Below are positions 8,075 through 20,914 of a DNA stretch of 64,000 bases, piece by piece (position 1 is the stretch's first letter; each line of letters starts with the position of its first letter). The notes beneath the pieces were generated by a model, which saw nothing but the letters and a program-made list of their open reading frames with translations, made no database searches and was not told where the DNA came from. The position numbers and the translations under genes were made by a program. This DNA is from Limibacillus halophilus. GTDB taxonomy: Bacteria; Pseudomonadota; Alphaproteobacteria; Kiloniellales; CECT-8803. The stretch lies in NCBI RefSeq assembly GCF_014191775.1, contig NZ_JACHXA010000004.1, positions 1 through 64,000 of the forward strand. The letters run 5' to 3'.

Positions 8075-9241
8075 TTACCGATGCCGTCGTGGTGTCATTG
8101 ATATTGATATCTTGGCTGATACACGATCCGCGGCCGCCTTCATAGGATCATCTGCTAGGTGCGCATAGCGGGCCGTGGTCTGGACTTGAGAGTGGCCTAG
8201 GAGCTTCCCGATCATTGGCAGGCTTTCGCCCATGCCAACGGCGCTTGATGCGAACGAGTGTCGCAGATCATGGATACGGAGGTCCGGTAGGCCCGCTTTA
8301 GCTCTGATGCGTCGCCAGGGCTTTTGCATGTCGGTTAGGTGCGCGCCGGGTTTAGTTCCGGCAATGACATAGGGATTATCGGGCAGGCGCTTGATGGCCC
8401 CCAGGACTTCCAGGGCGGCTCCGCCAAGATAGACCCGCTTGGCTCCGGTCTTTGAATCTGGGAGCCAGATAGAGTCGCCCTGTATGTACTCCCATTTGAG
8501 GGTTTGTATCTCACCCAGGCGGCAACCGGTGAGGATCAAGAGCCGGATAGCATCGATCGCCGCTTGTGATTCCTCGCCGCTCGCTTCCAGTTCGGTGAGT
8601 GTTGCACCCAGGCGCTCTAGCTCATTGCTGTTCAGGAAACGCTCGCGTTTCTTCTCAGCGTACTTGCGAACATGGCGGCAGGGGTTGGAGCCATCCGGGC
8701 GCAAGCCCCATACCTCGGCTAGATTGAACATGATGGAGAGCACGCCCAGGGTCCGGTTAGCCTGATAGGGTTTATCGTGGTAGCGGGCATGGAGGGCTGC
8801 GACCTGAGCCCTGGTTACGTCCTCGACTTTGCAACGTCCCAGGGCAGGAATGATGAAAAGATCAATGTTGCGCCGGTATTCCTTCTGCGTGCTCGGCTTG
8901 CAGCGGTGGGTTACGTGATCGCGCATGAAGAGCTCGCACAAGGTATCGACAGTGGAGGCCATTGCTCTACGGCGTTTTTCTTCAGCCGGGTTACTGCCTT
9001 GCGAGATAGCAGCCAATTGCAGCCGCGCTTCTGTCCTGGCCTCGTCAGCCGTCACCACGCCATGCTTGCCAAGTCCCTTGCGTCGGGTCCGCCGTCCATC
9101 GTCACGGTATTGTATGAGGTAGCCTTTACGGCCCGAGGGCATCACCCGAACGCCAAAGCCCGGCAGTTCGCTATCCCATAAGAAGTAGTCTTTATCTTTG
9201 ACCTGGAGGGCATCGACGGTACGCTTAGTGAGCTTCGGCAT
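8075..9241 (-). CDS. Tyrosine site-specific integrase of the element
   Basis: This 388-aa integrase has the N-terminal arm-binding domain typical of tRNA-island integrases (about 1-90, beginning MPKLTKRTVDALQ). A core-binding domain follows (about 100-200), then the catalytic domain. Catalytic residues visible are Arg in TGCRLGE (about 241), HDLRH (about 324-328), LGH (about 350) and Tyr in TTARYAH (about 359). The ATG at 9241 has an AGGAAG ribosome site. The open frame continues upstream to a TTG inside attR, but that extension reads through the attachment site. GGAAGCA repeats cover the start, suggesting self-regulation. Confidence 0.95.
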   Translation of the reverse strand: MPKLTKRTVDALQVKDKDYFLWDSELPGFGVRVMPSGRKGYLIQYRDDGRRTRRKGLGKHGVVTADEARTEARLQLAAISQGSNPAEEKRRRAMASTVDTLCELFMRDHVTHRCKPSTQKEYRRNIDLFIIPALGRCKVEDVTRAQVAALHARYHDKPYQANRTLGVLSIMFNLAEVWGLRPDGSNPCRHVRKYAEKKRERFLNSNELERLGATLTELEASGEESQAAIDAIRLLILTGCRLGEIQTLKWEYIQGDSIWLPDSKTGAKRVYLGGAALEVLGAIKRLPDNPYVIAGTKPGAHLTDMQKPWRRIRAKAGLPDLRIHDLRHSFASSAVGMGESLPMIGKLLGHSQVQTTARYAHLADDPMKAAADRVSAKISISMTPRRHR

Positions 9242-9242
9242 A

Positions 9243-9282
9243 TTGCTTCCTAGATTCGATTCTGGAAGCATATTGGAAGCAA
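9243..9282. promoter_or_regulatory. Putative integrase arm-type sites, right end
   Basis: Three copies of GGAAGCA occur here: one inverted (TTGCTTCC, 9243-9250) and two direct (9264-9281). The direct pair matches 537-554 at the left end in 17 of 18 bases. The inverted copy coincides with the integrase ribosome binding site, so occupancy would repress integrase translation or transcription. Confidence 0.5.
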
Positions 9283-9412
9283 CAGACGGCGAAATGCAAG
9301 GCCCAATGATGATAGGTGAGCGGAGTAGAGTATCAGAATCATCAAATAATATGAGCATGTTAGAACATATCAGCGCCTTACAGCGTTCTCGGTGATAAGC
9401 CCCAGAAGCTAT

Positions 9413-9458
9413 CTCATAACCTGAAGGTCGTAGGTTCAAATCCTACCCCCGCAACCAA
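9413..9458 (+). other. attR: 46-bp copy of the tRNA-fMet 3' end
   Basis: An exact copy of 443-488. It is not a functional tRNA because the 5' part is missing. After it the sequence is chromosomal again: an intrinsic terminator follows at once, as expected for the native end of the rrn operon. Confidence 0.93.
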
Positions 9459-9466
9459 ATACAAAA

Positions 9467-9497
9467 GCCCCCGGGAAGAACCCCGGGGGCTTTTTTT
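9467..9497 (+). terminator. Intrinsic terminator, originally of the rrn/tRNA-fMet transcript
   Basis: A 9-bp GC-rich stem (GCCCCCGGG at 9467-9475, CCCGGGGGC at 9482-9490) with a short loop is followed by seven T. It is separated from the tRNA gene by the integrated element. In the uninterrupted chromosome it would lie directly after the tRNA. Confidence 0.9.
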
Positions 9498-9525: not shown

Positions 9526-10317
9526 TCAGATGCCTTTGATGCTGCCACCGTCGACAGCGATAAGTGACCCGGTCACATAACTGGCTTTCTCGCTGACCAG
9601 GAAGGCGGCGACGGCTGCAAACTCCTCGACGCGGCCATAGCGACCAGCGGGGATGGCGTTGCGGGAGGCCGTGGCGACCTCTTCCACCGTCTTGCCGGTT
9701 CGGGCGGCGGCGGCGGCGTCGAGTTCGTCGACCCGCTCGGTATGGATACGGCCTGGCAGGATGGTGTTGACGGTCACGCCATCGCCTGCGACCTCCGCTG
9801 AAAGAGTCTTCGCCCAGCCGACAATCGAGGCACGGAGGGCGTTGGAAATCCCCAGGTTGGGGATCGGCTGGCGGACGCCGGAGGAGGCGGTGTTGAGGAT
9901 GCGGCCCCAGCCTTGCGCGCGCATGTCGGGCAGGACCAGTGCCGTCAGGTCGAACACACGACCGACCATGCTGTCGAACTGCTGGCGCCAGACCTCGGCG
10001 GGTACGGCGGCAATGCTGCCCGGCGGCGGACCGCCGGTGTTATTCACCACGATATCAATCGAGCCCCCCAGCGCCTCCTTTGCTGCGCGGTAAAGCTCCT
10101 CGGCGCTATTGTCCGCCGAAAGGTCGATGACCACAGGGTAGGCGGTGCCCTCATAAGCGTCGTTGAGCCGCCGTGCGGCAGCGTCGAGCTTGTCCTGGGA
10201 GCGCCCGCAGATGACAACCTTCGAGCCTTCCGCGCAAAGCGCTTCGGCAATTCCGAGGCCGAGGCCGCGACTCGACGCCAAGACGAGCGCGCGCTTTCCC
10301 TTCAATCCAAGATCCAA
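9526..10317 (-). CDS. SDR-family oxidoreductase with substituted active site
   Basis: The 263-aa protein has a Rossmann fold start (LVLASSRGLGLGIA, 12-24) and the NNTGG segment (92-96) of short-chain dehydrogenases. The active-site Ser is present (about 145). The usual Tyr-x-x-x-Lys reads Ser158-x-x-x-Arg162 (ISNALRAS), so classical SDR chemistry is doubtful. This variant is seen in a divergent SDR branch often annotated as 3-oxoacyl-ACP reductase. It lies 35 bp after the GntR gene on the same strand and is probably cotranscribed with it, as an accessory enzyme of the cluster. Confidence 0.88.
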   Translation of the reverse strand: MDLGLKGKRALVLASSRGLGLGIAEALCAEGSKVVICGRSQDKLDAAARRLNDAYEGTAYPVVIDLSADNSAEELYRAAKEALGGSIDIVVNNTGGPPPGSIAAVPAEVWRQQFDSMVGRVFDLTALVLPDMRAQGWGRILNTASSGVRQPIPNLGISNALRASIVGWAKTLSAEVAGDGVTVNTILPGRIHTERVDELDAAAAARTGKTVEEVATASRNAIPAGRYGRVEEFAAVAAFLVSEKASYVTGSLIAVDGGSIKGI

Positions 10318-10352
10318 TGTATTTCCTCCAAACGGTTGGGTGTTGTGACGGT

Positions 10353-11360
10353 TTACTCTCCGTCAGGTGGCTTGCGGTCGGATGCCGCAATTCGCGTCGC
10401 GGTGATGCGTGCGTGATCAAGATGCTCGTGCATCAATTGTGAGGCCTTTACGCGGTCACCTTGTTCCAGCGCCACGATAATAGCCAGATGCTCGCGCGAC
10501 CAATCGGTAATGCGGCGACGGTTGTCGTAACCGCGATACTCCAACATGCGCCGCAAGCGGTTTTGCTGCTGGATGGCCTGCAGGAACATCGGATTGCCGG
10601 TGAAGCCGGCGATGGTTTCGTGAAAGCTGGTGTCGACGCGGTAGATTTCCTCGCTGCTGACCCAGCGCCGGCCTTCCTGCTCGATCAGAGCTTCGTGGTC
10701 GCGTCGCAGACGCGTCAGGGCGATGGGGTCGATGGTGAAGTTCGGCAGCAGGATGCCTTCCGGCTCCAGAATACGGCGAAACTCATAGCTGGCCCGCCGT
10801 GCCTGCTGGCTGTCCAGCGTGGGCAGGAAGGTCCAACCCTGCCCCGGATTGCGGACCACAAGGCCTTCGTCCGTCATCTGGCTGAGAACCTGGCCCAAAA
10901 GAGCGCGATTAACATCATAGAGCCGCAGCATCTCGACCTGGGTGATGCTGTCGGGCAACCGCCCGGAGATCCGATCATTGACGATCCGTAGATAAAGTTG
11001 CTCCGCGTTGGAAGGGGGTAGGGCAAGTTCGATTTCGTAAAGATCGGCCACTGACTTGGCGACGAAGAAACCCAGATTTGGAACTGATGTTACTGCGCCT
11101 CGGCGTTCCAGCAGCATCAGGGCATTGCGGATCGGTGTTCTGGAAACCGAAAAATGCTGCGCCAGTTGCTGCTCAACAAGGTGGCTATCAACCTTCAAAC
11201 CCTCCTGACGGATATAGCCCAGGATGCGCAATGCCATCTCTATCTGGCGGCGGCTTTCCGGCTGCCCTTGGGCGGATGCCTTGGATTTCCGGGCGGCAAC
11301 GCTCCGCGAAGATTGCGCAGGTTCCTTCATGTTTTCTGGTCTCTGAGATCGGGGTGCCAT
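10353..11360 (-). CDS. GntR/FadR-type regulator with two winged-helix domains
   Basis: A 335-aa regulator. The first winged helix (about 37-105) contains VEQQLAQHFSVSRTPIRNAL, the GntR recognition helix. A second winged-helix-like unit follows (about 120-185, ITQVEMLRLYDVNRALLGQV), then a helical FCD ligand domain (about 190-325). Tandem HTH units before FCD are less usual than one. It is divergent from the ABC transporter genes, and the shared spacer holds a motif repeated in front of the aminotransferase at 20863. The expected ligand is the imported compound or an intermediate. The start could also be Met11. Confidence 0.9.
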   Translation of the reverse strand: MAPRSQRPENMKEPAQSSRSVAARKSKASAQGQPESRRQIEMALRILGYIRQEGLKVDSHLVEQQLAQHFSVSRTPIRNALMLLERRGAVTSVPNLGFFVAKSVADLYEIELALPPSNAEQLYLRIVNDRISGRLPDSITQVEMLRLYDVNRALLGQVLSQMTDEGLVVRNPGQGWTFLPTLDSQQARRASYEFRRILEPEGILLPNFTIDPIALTRLRRDHEALIEQEGRRWVSSEEIYRVDTSFHETIAGFTGNPMFLQAIQQQNRLRRMLEYRGYDNRRRITDWSREHLAIIVALEQGDRVKASQLMHEHLDHARITATRIAASDRKPPDGE

Positions 11361-11389
11361 GATGATCGAAAAACCGTATGTCGAATGTG

Positions 11390-11428
11390 TTGACAGCAAG
11401 ATTGTATAAAACGTAGCATAAAACGCAA
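11390..11428 (+). promoter_or_regulatory. Promoter with overlapping putative GntR operator
   Basis: TTGACA at 11390-11395 is a consensus -35. TAGCAT at 11414-11419 is a poor but correctly spaced -10 (18 bp). From 11401 to 11428 runs ATTGTATAAAA, five spacer bases, then CATAAAACGCAA. This has a direct repeat of ATAAAACG. The same two blocks recur at 20887-20914. The operator would cover the -10 region and block the transporter promoter. Confidence 0.65.
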
Positions 11429-11492
11429 CGCGGGGAAAGATAGGAGAGCCCAGCGTTTGCTCAGATCTAACAATGGAACGGGAGAGGGTAGA

Positions 11493-12308
11493 ATGTTTAC
11501 AAAAAAATTGGCTTTGATGGGATTTGCCGCCGTGCTGTTCGCCGGCGGTGCCATGGCGCAGGATGTTATGGCGCCGAAGAAATTGATTAATCCTGGCAAA
11601 CTCACTTATGGGACGGCTGCGACATTTGCGCCATTCGAGTATACGGAAAACGGCAAACTGGTTGGGTTCGATATCGAGCTTGGCGAAATGCTTGCCGAGA
11701 AGATGGGGCTTGAGACAGCGCCACTTAACATGGAGTTCAAGGGCCTGATCCCGGCGCTCCAGGGCACGCGTATCGATATCATCAACTCGGCGATGTACAT
11801 CAACGAGGAGCGCGCCAAGCAGGTTGAGTTCGTGCCATATCTCAAGATCGGTAACGAGATCATCGTGAAGGCCGGAAATCCGCATGGCATCAAGAGCCGC
11901 GCTGATGTCTGCGGTCGCACCATCGCCGTGACCCTGGGCGGTATCCAGGAAAGCTATGCCCGTGAGGACGCCACCCGCTGTGAAGGCGAGGGTAAGCCGA
12001 CAGTTACGGTTTTGACCTTCCCAACAGCCCAGGACTCTGCTTTGGCGGTTCGAGTCGACCGCGCCGATATCTTCTACAATTCGACGCCAGGTGCCGTTAA
12101 GCAGCTTAGCGAGCTTCCCGGCATCTATGAACTGGCGGGCGAAACCTTTGAATCGAACACGAGGATCGGCATTGCGTTGCGCAAGGACGACATGGATGGC
12201 AAGCGGGCCATCGAGGAGGCCTTGGCCGCCCTCGTCGCCGACGGCAGCTATGATGCTCTCATCGAGCGTTACAACCTGCCCAAGTCCGTCGCACTTTTGT
12301 CCCAGTAA
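11493..12308 (+). CDS. Amino-acid type ABC transporter, periplasmic binding protein (family 3)
   Basis: The 271-aa product has a clear signal peptide (MFTKKLALMGFAAVLFAGG, cleaved near AMA|QD). It then shows the family 3 pattern: GTAATFAPFEYTENGKLVGF, FDIELGEMLAEKMG and the Trp-free ligand region around DIINSAMYINEERAKQV. Such proteins bind polar amino acids, opines or derivatives. The ATG at 11493 has GAGAGGG upstream. It is the first gene of the import and breakdown operon, read divergently from the GntR gene. Confidence 0.92.
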   Translation: MFTKKLALMGFAAVLFAGGAMAQDVMAPKKLINPGKLTYGTAATFAPFEYTENGKLVGFDIELGEMLAEKMGLETAPLNMEFKGLIPALQGTRIDIINSAMYINEERAKQVEFVPYLKIGNEIIVKAGNPHGIKSRADVCGRTIAVTLGGIQESYAREDATRCEGEGKPTVTVLTFPTAQDSALAVRVDRADIFYNSTPGAVKQLSELPGIYELAGETFESNTRIGIALRKDDMDGKRAIEEALAALVADGSYDALIERYNLPKSVALLSQ

Positions 12309-12373
12309 CACACCTGGAACGGACCCGGTAATACGGGAGTTTCCGACAGCACCGGCAAAATGGATGGTGGTAG

Positions 12374-13102
12374 ATGTTTGATTCACCGGAACTCATAATC
12401 GAGTACCTGATATCTCCTGTTTTTCTGAATGCAGCCTGGTTAACCCTGGTGATCACGGTCGTGTCCATGACTTGTGCCATGATCATCGGGCTGTTCATCG
12501 CCTTGCTGCAGGAGACTAACTGGCCCTTCGTCAATGGGTTCGTAACGGTTTATCTGTGGCTTTTCCGAGGGACGCCCGTTCTTTTCCAGATCATCTTCAT
12601 TTTCAATGTGCTGCCAGTGTTTGGCATCCTTCTTTCAGGGTTCTTGAGCGGTGTCATCGCTTTGGCCCTGAATGAAGGTGCCTACATGGCGGAGATCTAT
12701 CGTTCGGGTATTCAATCGGTTGGCCGCGGCCAACGCACCGCAGGCAAATCTCTTGGCATGAAGGAATGGCAGGTAATGCGCTATGTCGTCATTCCACAGG
12801 CGCTGCGCGTGGTGATTCCACCCACCGGCAACCAATTCCTTGGAATGCTGAAACTTTCGGCATTGGTCTCGGTTATCGCCGTTGAAGAGCTGCTTCTGGT
12901 GGCTAATCAGACAGCGAGCGCAAATTTCCGCTACCTCGAGGCGCTGACAGCGGCCGGCATCTATTACCTCACAATGACCACGGTCTTTATGTTCATTCAG
13001 GCCAGAATTGAGCAGTGGGTCGGTGCTCGTCAGGGCGCGGTGGCTAAGCCGCGAACATGGACGCAGCGCCTCCTTGGCATGACCTCAAACGCAGGAGCCT
13101 GA
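12374..13102 (+). CDS. Amino-acid ABC transporter permease (HisM/GlnP type)
   Basis: This 242-aa integral membrane protein has about five hydrophobic segments. The binding-protein-dependent permease motif EAA lies near residue 125 (AGKSLGMKEWQVMRYVVIPQAL). The WLFRGTPVLFQIIFIFN segment (57-73) is typical of polar amino-acid permeases. Only one permease gene is present, so the channel is presumably a homodimer. It lies 65 bp after the binding-protein gene and two bases before the ATPase gene. Confidence 0.93.
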   Translation: MFDSPELIIEYLISPVFLNAAWLTLVITVVSMTCAMIIGLFIALLQETNWPFVNGFVTVYLWLFRGTPVLFQIIFIFNVLPVFGILLSGFLSGVIALALNEGAYMAEIYRSGIQSVGRGQRTAGKSLGMKEWQVMRYVVIPQALRVVIPPTGNQFLGMLKLSALVSVIAVEELLLVANQTASANFRYLEALTAAGIYYLTMTTVFMFIQARIEQWVGARQGAVAKPRTWTQRLLGMTSNAGA

Positions 13103-13103
13103 C

Positions 13104-13868
13104 ATGACCGCCGAATTGCAAGGGGGCGCAGGCCCCAAGGAGTTGATCCGCGTAAGGGGCCTTCATAAGTCCTTTGGCTCGCTAAAGGTCCTGCAGGATA
13201 TCGACATGACAGTCGAAACCGGAAAGACGGTTGTGCTGATCGGCCCGTCCGGGTCGGGAAAATCGACCCTACTGCGGTGCATGAACCTGCTGGAAACCAT
13301 CGAACAAGGCTCCATTACTTTTGATGGCCAGGAGATTGCTAATCTCACGCAACAAGCCCATCGCATCCGGCGTGATATAGCGATGGTCTTCCAAAACTTC
13401 GAGCTATTCAAACACCTGAGCGCGGCGGAGAACATCATGCTGGCGCCGATGAAGGTGAAGGGTGTTCCACGTCTGGAAGCCCATGACCGCGCCCTGGAGT
13501 TGCTTGAGAAGGTGAAGATACCCGATAAGGCGGACACCTATCCCGAGCAACTTTCGGGCGGGCAACAGCAGCGCGTGGCAATCGCGCGCGCACTTGCGAT
13601 GGATCCGAAAGCGATTCTTTACGACGAGCCGACCTCGGCCCTGGACCCGGAGATGATTCGCGAGGTTCTGGATGTGATGCTGGAGTTGAGTAACGCCGGT
13701 ATGACCAGTGTGGTCGTCACACATGAAATGAGCTTCGCCAGACGCGCTGCAGATCACATGGTCTTCATGGACAAGGGCCTTATCGTTGAGAGCTGCGCAA
13801 CTGATCAGTTTTTCGATGGCGAGGTCAGTGCCCGGACTAAGCAGTTCCTGGATCAAATTCTTCACTAA
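13104..13868 (+). CDS. Amino-acid ABC transporter ATPase (GlnQ/HisP type)
   Basis: A 254-aa ATPase with Walker A GPSGSGKST (about 47-55), Q-loop VFQNFELF, signature LSGGQQQRVAIARAL, Walker B ILYDEPTSALDPEM and switch His in VVTHEM. The length and motif spelling match the polar amino-acid uptake family. The start is one base after the permease stop, so translation is coupled. With the two preceding genes it makes a complete importer. Confidence 0.95.
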   Translation: MTAELQGGAGPKELIRVRGLHKSFGSLKVLQDIDMTVETGKTVVLIGPSGSGKSTLLRCMNLLETIEQGSITFDGQEIANLTQQAHRIRRDIAMVFQNFELFKHLSAAENIMLAPMKVKGVPRLEAHDRALELLEKVKIPDKADTYPEQLSGGQQQRVAIARALAMDPKAILYDEPTSALDPEMIREVLDVMLELSNAGMTSVVVTHEMSFARRAADHMVFMDKGLIVESCATDQFFDGEVSARTKQFLDQILH

Positions 13869-13910
13869 GTCCACGCGCCATCAGCGCGATCAACCTAGAG
13901 GTCACGTAAA

Positions 13911-15083
13911 ATGCCGATCGCACCAGATCCCAGTCGTATGAAGGCCGTCCTGGAGAAGCTTGTTTCTTTCAACACTGAAAACCCGCCGGGGCGTGAGGTG
14001 GAAGCGGCGCAATACCTGGCCGAAGAACTCAGGAATGCCGGATTTGATGTCCGTCTGGATCAATTCCTTCCGGGGCGAGCCAACGTCATCGCCACCTTCC
14101 GTAACGGCGACGGGCCCAGCTTCGCGTTCAACTCTCATATAGACGTGGTGCCGGCGGGGTCGGGATGGGCGCAAGACCCCTTCACCCTGACGGAGAAGGA
14201 AGGCAACCTTTACGGTCGCGGCTCTTGTGACGCCAAAGGTCCCATCGTTGCGATGATCGAAGCGCTTCGCATGTTGATTGCCGAGCCGCAAGCTTGGCGC
14301 GGAACCTTGATTGGCGCGTTCGTTGCGGATGAGGAAACCGAGAGTAAGGGAGCCAAGCATTACGTCGCCCAGGATGCGCCAAAGGTCGATCTGGTCGTCG
14401 TGGGCGAGCCGACCTCCAATACGACCGTTACGGCACATAAAGGGAGCCTACGCCCCATCATTCGAGTGATCGGTGAAACCGCGCACTCGGGAACCCCCAA
14501 TCTGGGTGTCAATGCGATCTTCAAGGCGGCCCGCCTATTGGGCTTGTTGGAAGACCACCATGCGGAGGTTGCTAAGCGTTGCCACCATCTTGTAGGGGGC
14601 GCCAGCTTGACCGTGACCCGGGTCGGCGGCGGGCACGCCGACAATATCGTACCCGATGCGTGTGAGTTCCTTGTCGACCGGAGGATGGTCCCCGGCGAAG
14701 ACGAGGAAGTTGCCAAGAAGGAAATCATGTCTCTTCTGGAAACAGCGCGTAGTGAATTCGGTATTCAAGCGGAAATCGTTGGTTACAAACCGACGACCGG
14801 CGGCCCTACGGAGACCGCACCGGAGCATCCCATCGTCAAGGCATCGCTCGAAGCTGGCCATGCTCACGGTGTTGCCGACAAGGAGCTGCATGGATTCCAG
14901 GGCGGTTGCGACCTCGTGCATTTCCGGTCGATCGGTGCCCAGGGTACCGTGATCGGTCCAGGTTCGCTTGCCGTAGCGCACAAGCCCAATGAGTTTGTTC
15001 CGATTCAAGAGTTCGTCGATGCGAGCCGCATTTACTGCGACGTTGCACGCCGCATGTTGCACGAGAGCGGCGCAGGCAACTGA
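13911..15083 (+). CDS. M20-family amidohydrolase/deacylase (ArgE/DapE-like)
   Basis: The 390-aa enzyme keeps all M20 metal and catalytic residues: His76 and Asp78 (NSHIDVVP), bridging Asp107 (GRGSCDAKG), Glu141-Glu142 (DEETES), an acidic ligand in VVGEPT and the C-terminal His in AHKPNEF. The family removes acyl groups from N-acyl amino acids or cuts dipeptides. Its place right after the importer suggests it acts on the imported compound, for example an N-acylated or N-carbamoylated amino acid. The substrate cannot be told from sequence. Confidence 0.92.
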   Translation: MPIAPDPSRMKAVLEKLVSFNTENPPGREVEAAQYLAEELRNAGFDVRLDQFLPGRANVIATFRNGDGPSFAFNSHIDVVPAGSGWAQDPFTLTEKEGNLYGRGSCDAKGPIVAMIEALRMLIAEPQAWRGTLIGAFVADEETESKGAKHYVAQDAPKVDLVVVGEPTSNTTVTAHKGSLRPIIRVIGETAHSGTPNLGVNAIFKAARLLGLLEDHHAEVAKRCHHLVGGASLTVTRVGGGHADNIVPDACEFLVDRRMVPGEDEEVAKKEIMSLLETARSEFGIQAEIVGYKPTTGGPTETAPEHPIVKASLEAGHAHGVADKELHGFQGGCDLVHFRSIGAQGTVIGPGSLAVAHKPNEFVPIQEFVDASRIYCDVARRMLHESGAGN

Positions 15084-16183
15084 TGACACGGCACATACGC
15101 CTCCTGACGGGCCGGTTGCATTACGGGCCGGAGGTCAAGTTACACACGGCCACCTCCGGCCCGGTTTCGCAGCTCGATGAGACCTATCTGCTGATTGAGC
15201 AGGAAGGGCGTACGCTCGGCGTTGGCGGCGTGCGCACGAATATCGCCTATCTAACCGGGATCACTGGGGACCGTATCAACAGGGAACTTGTTGATTGGGT
15301 CAATCGGATCGATTGGAGCCAATCGGTCGAGGCCCTGGCCGAGGAGGTCGTTGCGAGCAGGGAATTCCCGGGGCCAGTCAAGGCGCTCTTGGACCAGACG
15401 CTGCACGACGCCCTGGCGCGTGAAAGCGGCCTCACACTCTGCGAATGGCTTGGTGGTGCCTGGAAAGGTGCCGCCAGTACCAATCAAACCTTATTCTGGG
15501 GTGATAACCAGTCGCTTCTGAACCAGGCCGAAGCTTATGTGGCGCGTGGCTTCTGCAGTTTGAAGCTGCGGGTGGCGGTAGAGACTTTCGAGCAGGACTT
15601 TGCGCGCTTGAAGCTGCTCCGTGACCGCTTCGGCCATGAGATAAAGCTGGCTGCCGATGCAAACGGCCGTTGGACAGGAGAGTCAGCCAGACGCAACGTC
15701 GCGGCACTTGATGCGTTTTCGCTTGATTACATTGAGCAGCCGGTTGCAGCCGAGGACTGGGAAACATTACGGCTCCTATCCAGGGAAGCGCCGATGCCGG
15801 TCATGCTCGACGAATCATTGGCGGAACCATCCGCTGTCCGACGCCTTATCGAGATCGGCGGGAGCCTCGCCGGGCATTTGAAGTTGGTCAAATTTGGCGG
15901 CGTTGCGCCCTTGATGGAAGCGGCCGATGCGCTCGTCAAGGCGGGGGTCAGATGCATGGTTGGCCAGATGAACGAGGGATCGCTTGCCACAGCCGCTGCC
16001 GCTCATTGTGCGATGGCCCTCGGGGCGGAGGGTAACGAACTCTATGGCGCCGACGGCATCCTCGACGATCCTGCACACGGCCTTTCCTATGGCTCCGGTA
16101 TGGTCTCGCTGCCGAAGAGCCCGGGTCTAGGTATGACATTCAACACTTTAAATTTAACGCCGATTTGGGAGCGCAAGATATGA
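15083..16183 (+). CDS. Enolase-superfamily (muconate-lactonizing subgroup) enzyme
   Basis: This 366-aa protein has a capping domain and then a beta/alpha barrel with metal ligands Asp192 (ADANG), Glu218 (IEQP) and Asp243 (LDES). The general-base Lys267 lies in KLVKFGG and the barrel-end segment is QMNEGSLAT. The first base motif, usually Lys-x-Lys, reads Lys161-Leu-Arg163. That argues against a simple two-lysine racemase, though racemase, dipeptide epimerase or dehydratase activity all remain possible. Its ATG overlaps the preceding stop (TGATG). Confidence 0.88.
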   Translation: MTRHIRLLTGRLHYGPEVKLHTATSGPVSQLDETYLLIEQEGRTLGVGGVRTNIAYLTGITGDRINRELVDWVNRIDWSQSVEALAEEVVASREFPGPVKALLDQTLHDALARESGLTLCEWLGGAWKGAASTNQTLFWGDNQSLLNQAEAYVARGFCSLKLRVAVETFEQDFARLKLLRDRFGHEIKLAADANGRWTGESARRNVAALDAFSLDYIEQPVAAEDWETLRLLSREAPMPVMLDESLAEPSAVRRLIEIGGSLAGHLKLVKFGGVAPLMEAADALVKAGVRCMVGQMNEGSLATAAAAHCAMALGAEGNELYGADGILDDPAHGLSYGSGMVSLPKSPGLGMTFNTLNLTPIWERKI

Positions 16184-17346
16184 ACGCATCTTTCGTCAAA
16201 CAGGGCCAGGAAGCGGCTTTTTCAAAAGAAGAGCTGGCCAGCCGTGTCGAAGCAGCACGCCGCAGTCTTTCGGCCAAGAATATTGATGTGATGATCGTCA
16301 CCGGGCCGGAGAACATCTTCTACCTGACCGGGCAGCAGACGCCCGGGTATTACACCTTTCAAGCATTGGTGCTCCCTGTGGAAGGCGAGCCGCGATTTGT
16401 CGTGCGGCGGCTGGAATCACAAAACTGCATCGCCAACACTTACCTGGAGAATCTGGAGGTTTATGACGATGGAATAGATCCGTTGGACCTTCTGGTGGGA
16501 GTGGTCGCTAAGACCGGTGGAGCAAATCAGCGTGTTGCGATCGATAAGCGCGGATGGTTCCTGCCGATCACGGCGTTTGAGAAACTTCAGGAAAAGCTTG
16601 GCGTACTCGCCGATGGCGCGGGGATTGTCGAGAGTCTGCGCGCAGTCAAGTCACCGAGCGAAGTAGAGAAGATTTCCAGAGCCGCAAGCTATGTTGATGC
16701 CGGGATGGCGGCGGGGCTAGCGGCAATCCGTGAAGGGGCTAGCGAGAACGATCTAGTCGCGGCCATGATGGAGAGTGCGATCCGCGCCGGGTCTGAGTAT
16801 GTCGGAATGGAACCTTTGGTTTCCAGCGGCCGTCGTACGGGTGTTCCGCATGGCACTTGGAAGCGTCGCAAAATCCAAGGCGGGGAGCCGGTGTTCCTTG
16901 AGATGGCGGCTTGTCATGATCGCTATCACGCGGTTCTGATGCGCTCCGCCTGGATGGGCCAACCCAACGATGTGGCGCGTCGTATGATGGATGCCTGTCT
17001 GGAAGGACTAGACGCGGCGCTCGCCACTCTCAAGCCCGGCAACACCTGCGAACAAGTGCATCAAGCCGTTCAGGCGGTAATCGACAAAGCGGGTTACACC
17101 GAGAACTACCGGAAACGGAGTGGATACAGCGTCGGCATTTCTTTTGCGCCCGATTGGGGCGAATGGCAGGTCGCCAGCCTCTACGATGGTATCAAGAGGG
17201 AACTTGTCCCCGGCATGGTTTTCCATATCCCGCCTGCATTACGCATCTATGGCGATTTCACCGTTGGCGTCAGCGAGACCGTGGTTGTCACTGAGAACGG
17301 CAATCGCGTGTTGGGTAAGACAGCTCGCGACTTGGCAATTTACTAA
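16180..17346 (+). CDS. M24 'pita-bread' hydrolase, creatinase / ectoine-hydrolase-like
   Basis: The 388-aa product has a creatinase N-terminal domain (about 1-145, with ENIFYLTGQQTPGYYTFQAL) and an M24 catalytic fold. The Asp and His ligands expected in metal-dependent aminopeptidases are not where they should be. The segments FLEMAACHDRYHAVLMRS and SVGISFAPDWGEW match metal-free relatives such as creatinase and ectoine hydrolase. Hydrolysis of a cyclic amidine or C-N ring bond is therefore more likely than peptide cleavage. The ATG at 16180 overlaps the stop of the previous gene (ATGA). Confidence 0.88.
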   Translation: MNASFVKQGQEAAFSKEELASRVEAARRSLSAKNIDVMIVTGPENIFYLTGQQTPGYYTFQALVLPVEGEPRFVVRRLESQNCIANTYLENLEVYDDGIDPLDLLVGVVAKTGGANQRVAIDKRGWFLPITAFEKLQEKLGVLADGAGIVESLRAVKSPSEVEKISRAASYVDAGMAAGLAAIREGASENDLVAAMMESAIRAGSEYVGMEPLVSSGRRTGVPHGTWKRRKIQGGEPVFLEMAACHDRYHAVLMRSAWMGQPNDVARRMMDACLEGLDAALATLKPGNTCEQVHQAVQAVIDKAGYTENYRKRSGYSVGISFAPDWGEWQVASLYDGIKRELVPGMVFHIPPALRIYGDFTVGVSETVVVTENGNRVLGKTARDLAIY

Positions 17347-17358
17347 GGACCAACCGTT

Positions 17359-18669
17359 GTGAATGTTCCGCTGATCCTAGTCGAGCATCATACGGGCGAT
17401 CCGTCGGACGACTGCGTGGTGGCCGCTGAGCTTCACGCAGTCCTCCAGGGCATTTTTTCTGGGGGGGCCGCTTTTTCGAGGATTGTCGGCCCACAGACGG
17501 ACCAAGACCCGAATGCCTATCAGCACGTCTCTGCGTGTGGGACGTTGATGGGAAACCAATGGCTCTGGCCCGAGCGCTTAAGCGATCTATCCGCCGATCC
17601 GGCGTTGGAGTTCTCGGAAACGGGAGTGAGCGGGCCGGGTGGGGGGATCATCGCCTGCAACAACGTCGTCGCGCCAGGCCTTTCAGTTGATCGCCTGATG
17701 CATGGATTGCAGCAGAAACATCACGTCTTGCACGTCCGCGTGGAAAGCCAAGGGCGGGGCCTGACGGCGTACCTGCAACGAAGCGGCCTACAGCTGTCGG
17801 TTGACGTTATTGGACGTTGGACATTCGATGATTATTGCCGCCCCCGATTGTCGTTTCTCGATCTGTCTCCACTGGAACTGCCGACAAACGTTTTCTCGAA
17901 GATTTACCAGGCCGGGGATGTCGCGCCTGAGAATCGGCGGGCACGCCCATCTGTCCTGATCGTGGGCGAAGAGCAGAGATTGCGAAGGCAGTATCCGGCA
18001 TTGCTGGCGGCCATTGGCGATGCCGGCGACCTGCTCAAGATGAAACCGCATGTGGAGATTGTCTCGCCGCGCAATCTCGAGGCCGCGGAAGCGGAGGAAG
18101 CCGTCCATGCGACCGATGCCGTGCTTCTACCGGGTGGATGCGACAACAGTCAGGTTGACGGCCAAATTCGAATTGCAGCGGCAGCTCTGCGGGGCAATAC
18201 GCCAACTCTTGGCTCCTGCTTCGGCATGCAGACGATGGTGACCGCCTTTGTCAGAGAGAGATTAGGGAACGCTGGTGCACACCTGCAGGAAATAGAGCCC
18301 TCGGCGCGTCCCTTGACCTTTGTCCAAAACCCCGGCCCAAACGGGTCGATCCGGCATCGTTTGGGCGCGAAGACCTTCACCGTTTTACCGGGAACGCAAG
18401 CGCGATCGATCTACCAGTCGAGTCTGGGGCGCGAACGCATGCATCACCGCCACAGCCTGGCACTCGATCTCTGGCAACCGCTTTCAGAAGCGGGCCTGAT
18501 TATCTCCGGCAGGTCCGAGGAGGATCGTATCGCTGATGTGATCGAGCTTCCGGGGCATGCTTTCTATCTCGGAATACAAGGGCATCCTGAGTTGAGCAGT
18601 AGCGCGGCACGGCCACATCCAGCATTCATCGCATTCTTGGCCGCCGCCGCTGCGAATTCTCTTTCCTAA
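17359..18669 (+). CDS. CTP-synthase-type glutamine amidotransferase domain fused to an unknown N-terminus
   Basis: In this 436-aa protein, residues from about 196 to 430 follow the C-terminal GAT domain of CTP synthase. LLPGGCDNSQVDG is followed by nucleophile Cys287 in TLGSCFGMQ, then RHRLGA, ERMHHRHSLAL, and His409/Glu411 in IQGHPELSS. The synthetase domain is absent. Instead about 190 residues of no recognised family precede it (rich in Gly/Cys around 95-105). Ammonia supply to a partner, or hydrolysis of a gamma-glutamyl amide, are the options. The start is GTG at 17359, 12 bp after the previous stop. Confidence 0.82.
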   Translation: MNVPLILVEHHTGDPSDDCVVAAELHAVLQGIFSGGAAFSRIVGPQTDQDPNAYQHVSACGTLMGNQWLWPERLSDLSADPALEFSETGVSGPGGGIIACNNVVAPGLSVDRLMHGLQQKHHVLHVRVESQGRGLTAYLQRSGLQLSVDVIGRWTFDDYCRPRLSFLDLSPLELPTNVFSKIYQAGDVAPENRRARPSVLIVGEEQRLRRQYPALLAAIGDAGDLLKMKPHVEIVSPRNLEAAEAEEAVHATDAVLLPGGCDNSQVDGQIRIAAAALRGNTPTLGSCFGMQTMVTAFVRERLGNAGAHLQEIEPSARPLTFVQNPGPNGSIRHRLGAKTFTVLPGTQARSIYQSSLGRERMHHRHSLALDLWQPLSEAGLIISGRSEEDRIADVIELPGHAFYLGIQGHPELSSSAARPHPAFIAFLAAAAANSLS

Positions 18670-18696
18670 CTGCCTATAATCGATGGGAGACACCCA

Positions 18697-19623
18697 ATGA
18701 AATCTATGGACGAAGCACGTGAACGTACACAAGGCCTCTATAATATATGTGTAACGCCGTTCAGCGAAGACGGCACACTTAAGAAGGCTGCGCTTGAGGC
18801 AAACCTGGAGCGGGTTATCGGGTTGGGGTTCGACGGTATTCTGATTGGCGGGACCTATGGTGAGTTTCCCGCTATGTCGACCGAAGAGCGGGCCACGCTG
18901 TTCCGGGCTGCGGTCGAGGTGGTCGGCGATCGCGTGCCGCTGCTCCTCTGCTCGGCTGCGGCCGACCCGCGTGCGGCGGTGGAGTTGACGCAACTGGCAG
19001 CCGATCTTGGCGGCCTGCCGATGGTAACAGCGCCTTATGTATCGGAAATTACCGACGCGCAGATCGTGAGCTATTTCAAGGAAATCGCGAAGGTCTCTCG
19101 TACTGGAATCATGATCTACAACGCTCCGGGAATCGGCATTACGTTATCAGCGCCGCTAATTGAAGAACTGTCGGATATAGAGGGCATGATCGCATTGAAG
19201 CAAGGCGACCTATCTCCCACGGTAGTCGATCGCCTCGTAGGGCGCTTGAAGGGGAAACTAAAGATGTTGGCGGCTTCGGATCTTGCAATGTTGGGACCGA
19301 TCATGACCGGTTTTGACGGCTTGAGTTCGACCAACAGCTGTGCGTTGCCGGAAATCATCCATGGCACCTACAAAGCCGTGCTAGAGGGTGATGTCGGCCG
19401 GGCGACAAGTCTCAATCAGCTCTGGTACCCTGTGCGTGAAGCTTGCCGCGCATACGGTCAGCCGCAGACAACAAAAGCGATGATGGCTTTGCGCGGCTGG
19501 GACGGCGGCGTGGTACGTGCTCCTCTCCGTAGTTTGAGCCGCGCGCAACACGAAAGCCTCGCGGAAACACTTAGGCAGGTGGCCGCCAATACCGACGAGC
19601 GACTCCTAAAGCTGGCGGCTTAA
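18697..19623 (+). CDS. DHDPS / N-acetylneuraminate lyase family aldolase
   Basis: This 308-aa class I aldolase has GGTYGE (51-56), the Tyr141 of IYNAPG and the Schiff-base Lys168 in IALKQGD. The family condenses or cleaves pyruvate or 2-keto acids. In a breakdown cluster with a dehydratase-type enolase enzyme and aminotransferase, retro-aldol cleavage of a keto acid or a hydrolyase step is the natural fit. It is not the biosynthetic DapA by context. The ATG has GGGAGA upstream. It is the last plus-strand gene of the operon. Confidence 0.9.
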   Translation: MKSMDEARERTQGLYNICVTPFSEDGTLKKAALEANLERVIGLGFDGILIGGTYGEFPAMSTEERATLFRAAVEVVGDRVPLLLCSAAADPRAAVELTQLAADLGGLPMVTAPYVSEITDAQIVSYFKEIAKVSRTGIMIYNAPGIGITLSAPLIEELSDIEGMIALKQGDLSPTVVDRLVGRLKGKLKMLAASDLAMLGPIMTGFDGLSSTNSCALPEIIHGTYKAVLEGDVGRATSLNQLWYPVREACRAYGQPQTTKAMMALRGWDGGVVRAPLRSLSRAQHESLAETLRQVAANTDERLLKLAA

Positions 19624-19654
19624 TTTATAGATGTGCCGTAATGCCTGTGGGTGG

Positions 19655-20863
19655 CTAGTTAAGCCGCCCGCAGGCCGCACGGATTCGGCGGCATCCTTCA
19701 ACCAGATCCCGGTCATCGAGGCCGTAGGCGATACGAAGATAGGGCGATAAACCGAAGGCTGTCCCCGGCACGACGCCGACCTTAGCGTCGTCCGCCAAGT
19801 ATTTAGCGACATCCGTATCGCTCTCGAGGATCGCGCCATCCGCTGTCTTCCGCCCCAGCAAGGCCTGACAGTTCACGTAGACATAAAAGGCGCCGGGCGG
19901 GGTATCACACCGCAAACCTTGGGTCTGGTTCAATGCCGCAACCACCAGATCGCGACGTGTTCTTAATCGCTCCAGTCTTTCCGCCATAAAGTCCTGTGGG
20001 CCGACCAACGCCGCGCGCGTCGCTTCTTGGCACATTGCCGCCGCGTTGGTTGTGCTCTGGGACTGAAGAACCTGCATGGCGGAAATGAGCCAGGAAGGGC
20101 CCCCAGCAAAGCCGATACGCCATCCTGTCATGGAATAAGCCTTGGAAACGCCGTTGACGGTCAAAATCCGGTCGGCAAGGTCAGGGCGAACGGCTGCAGG
20201 AGTTGCGAACGCGCCTTCATAGACGATGTGTTCGTAAATATCGTCCGACATCACCAGAATACCGGGGTTGTCCGCAATCACCTCCAAGAGCGCATCAAGT
20301 TCCTGGGCGGAATATAAGGCGCCGGTCGGGTTGTTTGGAGAATTCAGTACAAGCCATTTGGTCGCGGGTGTAATCGCTTTGCTTAGCGCGGCGGGCGAGA
20401 TCTTAAAGCCATTCCTGTCTTCCCCGGGAACAATGACAGGAGTTCCGCCTGCCAGACGAACAATATCGGGGTAGGACACCCAGTAAGGGGCGGGAATGAT
20501 AACCTCGTCTCCGGCACTTACAGTTGCGAGGATCGCGTTGAAAATAAGCTGCTTTCCGCCAGTGCCGACGATCAATTGGTCGAGCGAAAAGTCGAGGCCG
20601 TTGTCGCGCTGGAACTTCGTCTGCACGGCTTTCTTGACCTCTATGGTGCCACCGACGGCCGTGTAACGCGTGATACCGCCCTCGATAGCTGAGATGCCAG
20701 CCTGCTTGATGAACTCCGGCGTTTCAAAATCGAGTTCACCTTCGCCAAAGTTAATGACGTGTTCGCCCTTGGCGGTCATTGCCCGAACCAAATCTGCTAC
20801 GACGGCTGTCGGGGACTCGCGAAGCTGTCCCATGCGAGGCGCCAAAAGGCTCCTGGAATTCAT
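19655..20863 (-). CDS. Class I PLP-dependent aminotransferase (aspartate aminotransferase-like)
   Basis: The 402-aa enzyme shows the family I pattern: SPNNPTG near 170, DDIYEHIVYE and PLP-binding Lys in NGVSKAYSMTGWRIGF (about 240). The chosen ATG at 20863 has a perfect GGAGGAAG ribosome site; a start 21 bp upstream is in frame but unneeded. It faces the aldolase gene convergently. The sequence upstream (20887-20914) repeats the operator found in front of the importer, so it belongs to the same regulon. Confidence 0.93.
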   Translation of the reverse strand: MNSRSLLAPRMGQLRESPTAVVADLVRAMTAKGEHVINFGEGELDFETPEFIKQAGISAIEGGITRYTAVGGTIEVKKAVQTKFQRDNGLDFSLDQLIVGTGGKQLIFNAILATVSAGDEVIIPAPYWVSYPDIVRLAGGTPVIVPGEDRNGFKISPAALSKAITPATKWLVLNSPNNPTGALYSAQELDALLEVIADNPGILVMSDDIYEHIVYEGAFATPAAVRPDLADRILTVNGVSKAYSMTGWRIGFAGGPSWLISAMQVLQSQSTTNAAAMCQEATRAALVGPQDFMAERLERLRTRRDLVVAALNQTQGLRCDTPPGAFYVYVNCQALLGRKTADGAILESDTDVAKYLADDAKVGVVPGTAFGLSPYLRIAYGLDDRDLVEGCRRIRAACGRLN

Positions 20864-20886
20864 GTGCTCTTCCTCCATTTTCATCT

Positions 20887-20914
20887 ATTGTATAAAAAGA
20901 AACATAAAACGCAA
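20887..20914 (-). promoter_or_regulatory. Putative GntR operator upstream of the aminotransferase
   Basis: ATTGTATAAAA followed by five bases and CATAAAACGCAA is the same as 11401-11428 apart from three bases in the middle spacer. It lies 24 bp before the aminotransferase ATG, read on the plus strand in the same orientation. The region from 20915 to 21087 is AT-rich and holds no gene; it should contain the promoter of the kinase gene. Confidence 0.65.

Follow-up and report, generated by a model that had tools for sequence, protein, structure and literature searches.

A conserved catabolic regulon without an assigned pathway in Limibacillus halophilus, encoding a predicted amidase that resembles a decayed CTP synthase

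The first 64,000 nucleotides of contig NZ_JACHXA010000004.1 of Limibacillus halophilus (assembly GCF_014191775.1; Alphaproteobacteria, Kiloniellales), the whole stretch analyzed here and referred to as the window, contain between positions 9526 and 20914 a gene cluster in which an amino-acid-type importer is combined with several enzymes and a relative of cytidine triphosphate (CTP) synthase. An original prediction, made from the sequence alone, described this region as an uncharacterised catabolic regulon, and every open reading frame (ORF) of the gene set that it named was found in place, with families assigned by Pfam, which was run on ten proteins, and by NCBIfam, with which alone the aminotransferase was compared. 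The forward strand encodes, in succession, a periplasmic amino-acid-type binding protein of SBP family 3 (SBP, SBP_bac_3; 11493–12308), an ABC permease of the polar amino acid type (BPD_transp_1; 12374–13102), an ABC ATPase (ABC_tran; 13104–13868) whose top NCBIfam model, GlnQ, is matched below its cut-off, a deacylase of the M20 ArgE/DapE family (M20; 13911–15083), an MLE-type enolase-superfamily protein with a K-x-R motif (ENO, MR_MLE_C; 15083–16183), an ectoine-hydrolase-like protein without metal ligands (M24, Creatinase_N plus M24; 16180–17346), a protein with a class I GATase domain that looks like a decayed CTP synthase (GAT; 17359–18669), and a class I aldolase or lyase of the DHDPS family (ALD, Pfam DHDPS; 18697–19623). 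The intergenic gaps along this run are 65, 1, 42, −1, −4, 12, and 27 bp, in agreement with the overlapping or closely spaced genes of the prediction. On the reverse strand, an aspartate-aminotransferase-like class I protein (AT; 19655–20863) faces ALD, and at the other end of the cluster the gene of a GntR/FCD regulator (10353–11360) is followed on the same strand, after a gap of 35 bp, by that of an SDR oxidoreductase (SDR, adh_short; 9526–10317). The starts at 11493 (SBP), 16180 (M24), and 20863 (AT, preceded by GGAGGA; its longest ORF starts at 20884) are the probable ones, and the regulator starts near 11330–11360, at one or the other of these positions, rather than at 12386.

The importer, M20, ENO, M24, and GAT occur together in 14 loci of Alphaproteobacteria, Gammaproteobacteria, and one unclassified metagenome-assembled genome, i.e., the window and L003, L004, L005, L006, L036, L037, L038, L039, L045, L046, L056, L057, and L062. 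A conserved neighborhood of GAT with M24 and ENO, for which the original prediction had proposed a search, is thus present, and its hosts include A. fabrum C58 (on pAt, with the GAT, M24, ENO, and M20 genes at ATU_RS26150 to ATU_RS26165), Pantoea, Shinella, R. lusitanum, Komagataeibacter, and Roseospira. GAT was found in 14 of the 14 loci in which the importer, M20, ENO, M24, and the next stretch were visible, a count that is biased for L003–L006 because it was GAT that led to these four (and ENO as well in the case of L006), the remaining loci having been found through ENO, M24, or both. The GntR gene was seen in 13 of the 14, the stretch of L062 starting at the binding protein. In Komagataeibacter saccharivorans (L005, 3197–4753), the binding protein and permease of the importer are fused into one ORF of 518 amino acids. 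Eighteen loci with ENO were inspected, namely the 14 core loci together with L054, L055, L058, and L059; L055 has the importer, M20, ENO, and M24 on a contig that ends ahead of where GAT would be visible, and L054, L058, and L059 have ENO without M20 and without GAT, with M24 beside ENO in L054. In the latter three loci ENO, with K-x-R, adjoins genes that by eye are thiamine-diphosphate-enzyme-like (checked with Pfam in L054 only), MmgE/PrpD-like, and of the TRAP type, and these are apparently other pathways with the same ENO family. Among 61 genomes of the order, GAT was found in the host alone. In a sample of 385 genomes of the class, 75 matched GAT at an E-value of 1e-27, and only those of the host, G207, and G384 stand out (at most 4.3e-42, identity at least 41%), the G207 and G384 matches being GAT within the cluster; for the other 72, 26 frames were read as PyrG, L010 was left out (wrong frame), and the rest were assumed to be PyrG. 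ENO was found in 7 of the 385 class genomes, in 1 of the 398 genomes of a phylum sample (the host itself), in 3 of 17 genomes from the family to which G207 belongs, and in 32 plasmid records, seven of which were examined.

The two strands of the cluster are linked by a 27-bp element, a putative operator, of which one copy (11402–11428, forward strand) lies between the GntR and SBP genes and the other (20888–20914, forward strand) just upstream of AT, its last base being the end coordinate given by the original prediction. The first copy overlaps a promoter-like site, sites of this kind being no more frequent in the region than in shuffled sequences. The degenerate pattern derived from both copies, TTGTATAAAAnGnAnCATAAAACGCAA, was matched only at these two places in the whole 3.48-Mb genome with up to three mismatches, gave no match when read backwards, and did not occur in 100 shuffles of the window. 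Because the element precedes only the importer operon and AT, two divergent transcription units, one regulon spanning both strands is supported, as is the predicted inclusion of the SDR and aminotransferase strand. Pantoea At-9b has a related pair of elements in its GntR/SBP and AT intergenic regions (0 of 100 shuffles). Furthermore, of 20 intergenic regions in 14 loci, 19 contain a dyad, TTGTAT-N15-ATACAA, with at least 9 of 12 positions, whereas spacers of 8–14 and 16–22 yield 2–16 of 20; the dyad of L055 reaches 8 of 12 only, and no perfect palindrome is common to the intergenic regions of all loci. The regulator consists of GntR winged-helix and FCD domains; in the window as in A. fabrum C58, FCD is preceded by two GntR stretches in tandem, which may relate to the length of the operator, and the regulon is probably under GntR/FCD control through the binding of this protein to two copies of one operator. 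No assignment of the gene set to a pathway was found in the open-licence PubMed Central literature, in line with the original prediction, which knew of none. On the basis of synteny, the shared operator, and the importer, a real, conserved, but rare catabolic regulon of no assigned pathway is well supported. Its best explanation, to which we give an even chance, is an inducible uptake-and-degradation system for a glutamine-like amino acid in N-acylated, cyclic, or amidated form, GAT being the presumed amidase.

ENO shares the MLE-type barrel, the metal triad, and the strand 6 lysine with dipeptide epimerases, N-acylamino acid racemases, and muconate cycloisomerases, and D192, E218, and D243, which we take to be its D, E, D metal ligands, are invariant in nine aligned rows. 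It differs from these enzymes in carrying K-x-R for K-x-K, and in a GQMNEG motif; both features were present in 17 of 17 sequences (the 18 ENO loci minus L062), K-x-R being read in L058 from the printed stretch VKLRVG. The K-x-K lysines are catalytic in NSAR and dipeptide epimerase, and the motif is visible in the solved structures 1jpm and 2p88. For this enzyme, dehydration or epimerisation had been predicted; simple two-base epimerisation is now less likely because the second lysine of K-x-K is absent. In M24, compared with the P. furiosus prolidase 1pv9 under what we assume to be the ligand numbering of its metal site, all five metal ligands are replaced (D209 by E241, D220 by V252, H284 by Y316, E313 by P351, and E327 by S365), which agrees with the metal-free M24 of the prediction, and E241, Y316, P351, and S365 are invariant in 11 M24 rows. 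These results bear on the scavenging of dipeptides or gamma-glutamyl peptides, in which ENO would serve as a dipeptide epimerase, M24 and M20 as peptidases, and GAT as a gamma-glutamyl hydrolase. Such a role is in keeping with the best solved relative of ENO, the dipeptide epimerase 1jpm (108 bits), and with the alignment of the GATase half of GAT to PuuD (Z 22.5) and SpuA (Z 22.6); nevertheless, K-x-R is uniform in ENO, M24 peptidases require the very ligands that M24 has replaced, and a class I aldolase would be superfluous for peptides. We consider peptide scavenging unlikely.

The main new finding on the proposed catabolic regulon for a glutamine-like amino acid concerns GAT. A profile built from nine GAT sequences hits CTP synthases in their glutaminase half (1.9e-54), and the AlphaFold model of the window protein (seven sequences, mean pLDDT 82.5) can be aligned with CTP synthases along its entire length, residues 1–436 (409 aligned residues, Z 35.4, and root-mean-square deviation 3.4 to 4zdi_H), rows 1–35 of a Foldseek search with the full model all being long CTP synthase chains. 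The N-terminal half alone (pLDDT 62.4) places CTP synthases first in VIA-align (Z 7.6–9.7 in the first 14 rows, 9.7 for the Escherichia coli enzyme, and 6.8 for the next fold), and its hhalign score of 26.1 against CTP synthase, obtained with 14 sequences, was reached by none of 200 column shuffles (best 21.2). A new N-terminal domain had been considered and was set aside after the structural matches of the full-length protein and the N-terminal half. GAT thus looks like a whole, shrunken CTP synthase with a decayed synthetase half; the predicted CTP-synthase-type amidotransferase is retained, and the view of it as a GAT domain with an unrelated extension is abandoned. All 14 GAT proteins have the glutaminase motifs C.GMQ and Q.HPE, and the intact triad C287, H409, and E411 is invariant in 13 of 13 rows together with E311 and R364, which align with the residues through which CTP synthase presumably binds glutamine at its alpha-amino and carboxylate groups; their conservation indicates a glutamine-like amide as the GAT substrate. 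By contrast, the P-loop is found in 0 of 14 GAT proteins versus 26 of 27 PyrG sequences (in the remaining one, L012, the frame used starts past the P-loop), the GGTVGD-type and KTKPTQ-type (uridine triphosphate (UTP)-site) motifs in 0 of 14 versus 27 of 27, and GAT falls under the NCBIfam CTP-synthase equivalog cut-offs (143.1 versus 308 and 129.8 versus 462.75 bits). GAT therefore resembles PyrG in its two-domain order, its fold over the full model length, its glutaminase triad, and its glutamine-site residues, and differs from it in length (436 residues versus 541 in the PyrG of the host), in the missing P-loop and UTP-site motifs, and in its location within a catabolic operon.

It has to be asked whether GAT still feeds ammonia to another enzyme, in a cluster that would then be partly biosynthetic. 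An N-terminal region of 115–205 residues, unneeded in a plain amidase, is retained before the GATase domain in all 14 proteins, but it is poorly conserved and in two Pantoea loci is no longer than 115 residues, none of the 14 proteins has the P-loop or a UTP-site motif, and the importer and GntR regulator indicate catabolism, which makes ammonia supply quite improbable. Most likely, GAT would act as an amidase. Among annotated members, three are publicly named "CTP synthase" and three "gamma-glutamyl-gamma-aminobutyrate hydrolase family protein"; the former name is given despite absent P-loop and UTP-site motifs at L036 14264–15487, L037 13165–14241, and L046 12154–13176.

M24 connects the cluster to ectoine degradation, in which ring opening by DoeA has been described (PMC5924519). 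The solved protein nearest to M24 is ectoine hydrolase (6twj, 179 bits), and with DoeA/EutD it shares the M24 family, a glutamate in place of the first metal ligand, and the pattern of replaced ligands. It differs from them in its gene neighbors and in reaching 220.3 bits against the DoeA model TIGR02993, versus a cut-off of 613, and the host has a separate, true DoeA at C1:90776 (707 bits). The full CTP synthase of the host, with its P-loop, is likewise encoded elsewhere (contig C5), and since both enzymes are located outside the cluster, neither CTP synthesis nor ectoine hydrolysis is likely to be the local function. M20 scores above the ArgE/DapE subfamily cut-off (TIGR01910, 257.8 versus 217.6 bits), and AbgB is, we assume, an M20 protein as well. 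The best NCBIfam model of the permease is EhuD (159 bits, cut-off 205), and EhuB and EhuA are matched by SBP and the ATPase, although other models fit these two proteins better. A variant of ectoine or hydroxyectoine catabolism, with M24 as ring hydrolase, M20 as deacetylase, and AT as transaminase, could draw on these resemblances and on the abgB gene reported in putative ectoine clusters of Bacillota (PMC13188858), but it is very unlikely and was set aside in view of the M24 score and the true DoeA elsewhere, the absence of a MocR-type regulator, DoeB or DoeB-like genes, EnuR, and EutABC among the Pfam and NCBIfam families of the cluster, and the lack of a role for GAT, ALD, and ENO in the passages of PMC5924519 that describe the ectoine route.

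The end of the route that we favor, i.e., degradation of a glutamine-like amino acid, can be considered from ALD, AT, and related clusters. ALD resembles 4-hydroxy-2-oxoglutarate aldolase and the DHDPS family in its Schiff-base lysine and active tyrosine, both aligned to 3hij, and differs in lying under the cut-off of every one of the seven NCBIfam models matched. Human HOGA, a DHDPS-related class I aldolase, cleaves 4-hydroxy-2-oxoglutarate to pyruvate and glyoxylate (PMC3188589). The closest NCBIfam model of AT is the aspartate transaminase PRK06107 (486 bits, below its cut-off of 617). ALD and AT could finish the route in the nine core loci that have both (the window, L003, L004, with AT at 38%, L005, L037, L038, L039, L045, and L046), and SDR is present in seven (the window, L005, L037, L038, L039, L045, and L046); other loci have different or no visible ends. 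Two of the loci, L006 and L036, carry a module of a VOC protein, a GhrA-like (glyoxylate/hydroxypyruvate-reductase-like) protein, and a D-amino-acid transaminase, the set that takes the place of ALD, AT, and SDR in A. fabrum C58 and R. lusitanum. In four further clusters (L040, L041, L043, and L044), an M24 homologue (51–52%) is accompanied by PxpABC (5-oxoprolinase), a D-amino-acid transaminase, a hydroxyacid dehydrogenase, and a VOC protein, and L040, L041, and L044 have a carbamoylase-type hydrolase in addition; L042 lacks the transaminase and dehydrogenase but has M24, PxpABC, VOC, and carbamoylase-type hydrolases, and Salipiger (L041) also has AT (57%) and SDR (40%, cut). The four clusters share with the regulon the homologous M24 and its linkage to VOC and D-amino-acid transaminase, and differ in having PxpABC (and, except in L043, a carbamoylase-type hydrolase) instead of M20, ENO, and GAT; no described pathway for them was found in the same open-licence literature. 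If PxpABC acts on a 5-oxoproline-type lactam and GAT on an open-chain amide, the two would meet at a glutamate analogue, for which 4-hydroxyglutamate is named.

In the proposed mechanism, the glutamine-like amino acid, whether N-acylated, cyclic, or amidated, would enter through the importer, M20 would strip the N-acyl group, and ENO would work on the alpha-carbon, by elimination or a one-base reaction more likely than by two-base racemisation. Like ectoine hydrolase, M24 would catalyse an opening, of either a ring or an amidine, and GAT would hydrolyse the amide in the side chain of the glutamine analogue so formed, with the glutaminase half of the ancestral CTP synthase. AT would then convert the glutamate analogue to the 2-oxo acid, ALD would cleave it to pyruvate and an aldehyde such as glyoxylate, and SDR would handle an end product, as GhrA with a D-amino-acid transaminase and a VOC protein might do in two other loci; a 4-hydroxyglutamate-type intermediate would best fit AT, ALD, and GhrA. 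The predicted route of ring hydrolysis, deacylation, dehydration or epimerisation, retro-aldol cleavage, and transamination is chemically reasonable as a proposal. More tentatively, and as a possibility that we rate as somewhat doubtful, an entire CTP synthase would have been recruited into catabolism, its synthetase half having decayed and its glutaminase half having become the amidase of an undescribed pathway, where the opening of a ring or amidine by the metal-free M24 would be followed by deamidation of the glutamine-like product by GAT, en route to a 4-hydroxyglutamate-type intermediate.

Several observations weigh against the favored explanation of an uptake-and-degradation regulon for a glutamine-like amino acid. 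The substrate and the succession of steps are deduced, and the sequence does not give the order of steps. The route has no fixed end, given that ALD with AT, and SDR, are confined to nine and seven of the 14 loci and that other loci differ or show none: L056 and L057 have as end module only a GhrA-like reductase (37–40%) beside GntR, L062 has no end module in the 12 kb examined, and the ALD homologue in Salipiger L041 is just 26% identical. SDR may not be an ordinary dehydrogenase, as the catalytic Tyr and Lys of YxxxK are replaced (SN.LR in the window) in eight of eight sequences, one of them partial (L041). Regarding GAT, a Foldseek search with the N-terminal half alone gave no CTP synthase among the 50 rows listed, with the phage P4 ATPase first (E 0.012), and the hhalign probability of this half against CTP synthase was 52.6 with nine sequences but 8 with 14; its relationship to CTP synthase depends on the predicted model of one protein, the sequence comparison alone being weak. 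Regarding regulation, the within-locus operator pair is clear only in the window and L037 (each reached by 0 of 100 shuffles) among seven loci tested, and borderline or absent in L039 (1), L046 (3), L038 (4), L045 (8), and L003 (48). The best dyad score was reached by 0–8 of 200 shuffles across 19 regions and by 13 of 200 in L055, and the short dyad alone is unspecific, with 477 genome matches versus 522 for the reversed control; moreover, it was derived from some of the tested regions and therefore lends support without being an independent test.

The likely left border of the regulon is an intrinsic-terminator-like stem of 14 pairs (9463–9494, reverse strand) behind SDR, the longest of 11 stems found (runner-up 10 pairs), a number not above that in shuffles (mean 12.1). 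A tyrosine integrase gene (Arm-DNA-bind_3 plus Phage_integrase; 8075–9439, reverse strand) adjoins the SDR end, which suggests a mobile island that may carry the cluster or border it.

The individual reactions are of known kinds, whereas the CTP-synthase-derived amidase and the combination of genes appear to be new, no description of them having been found in the open-licence PubMed Central literature. The name "CTP synthase" in public records of this family is probably mistaken, and such records can now be flagged. If correct, the proposal would add a catabolic pathway that is partly shared with A. fabrum C58, which carries the core of the cluster, and that acts on a compound probably met by plant-associated bacteria, judging from the sources of several strains; it would further show how, in nature, an enzyme of nucleotide synthesis has become an amidase.

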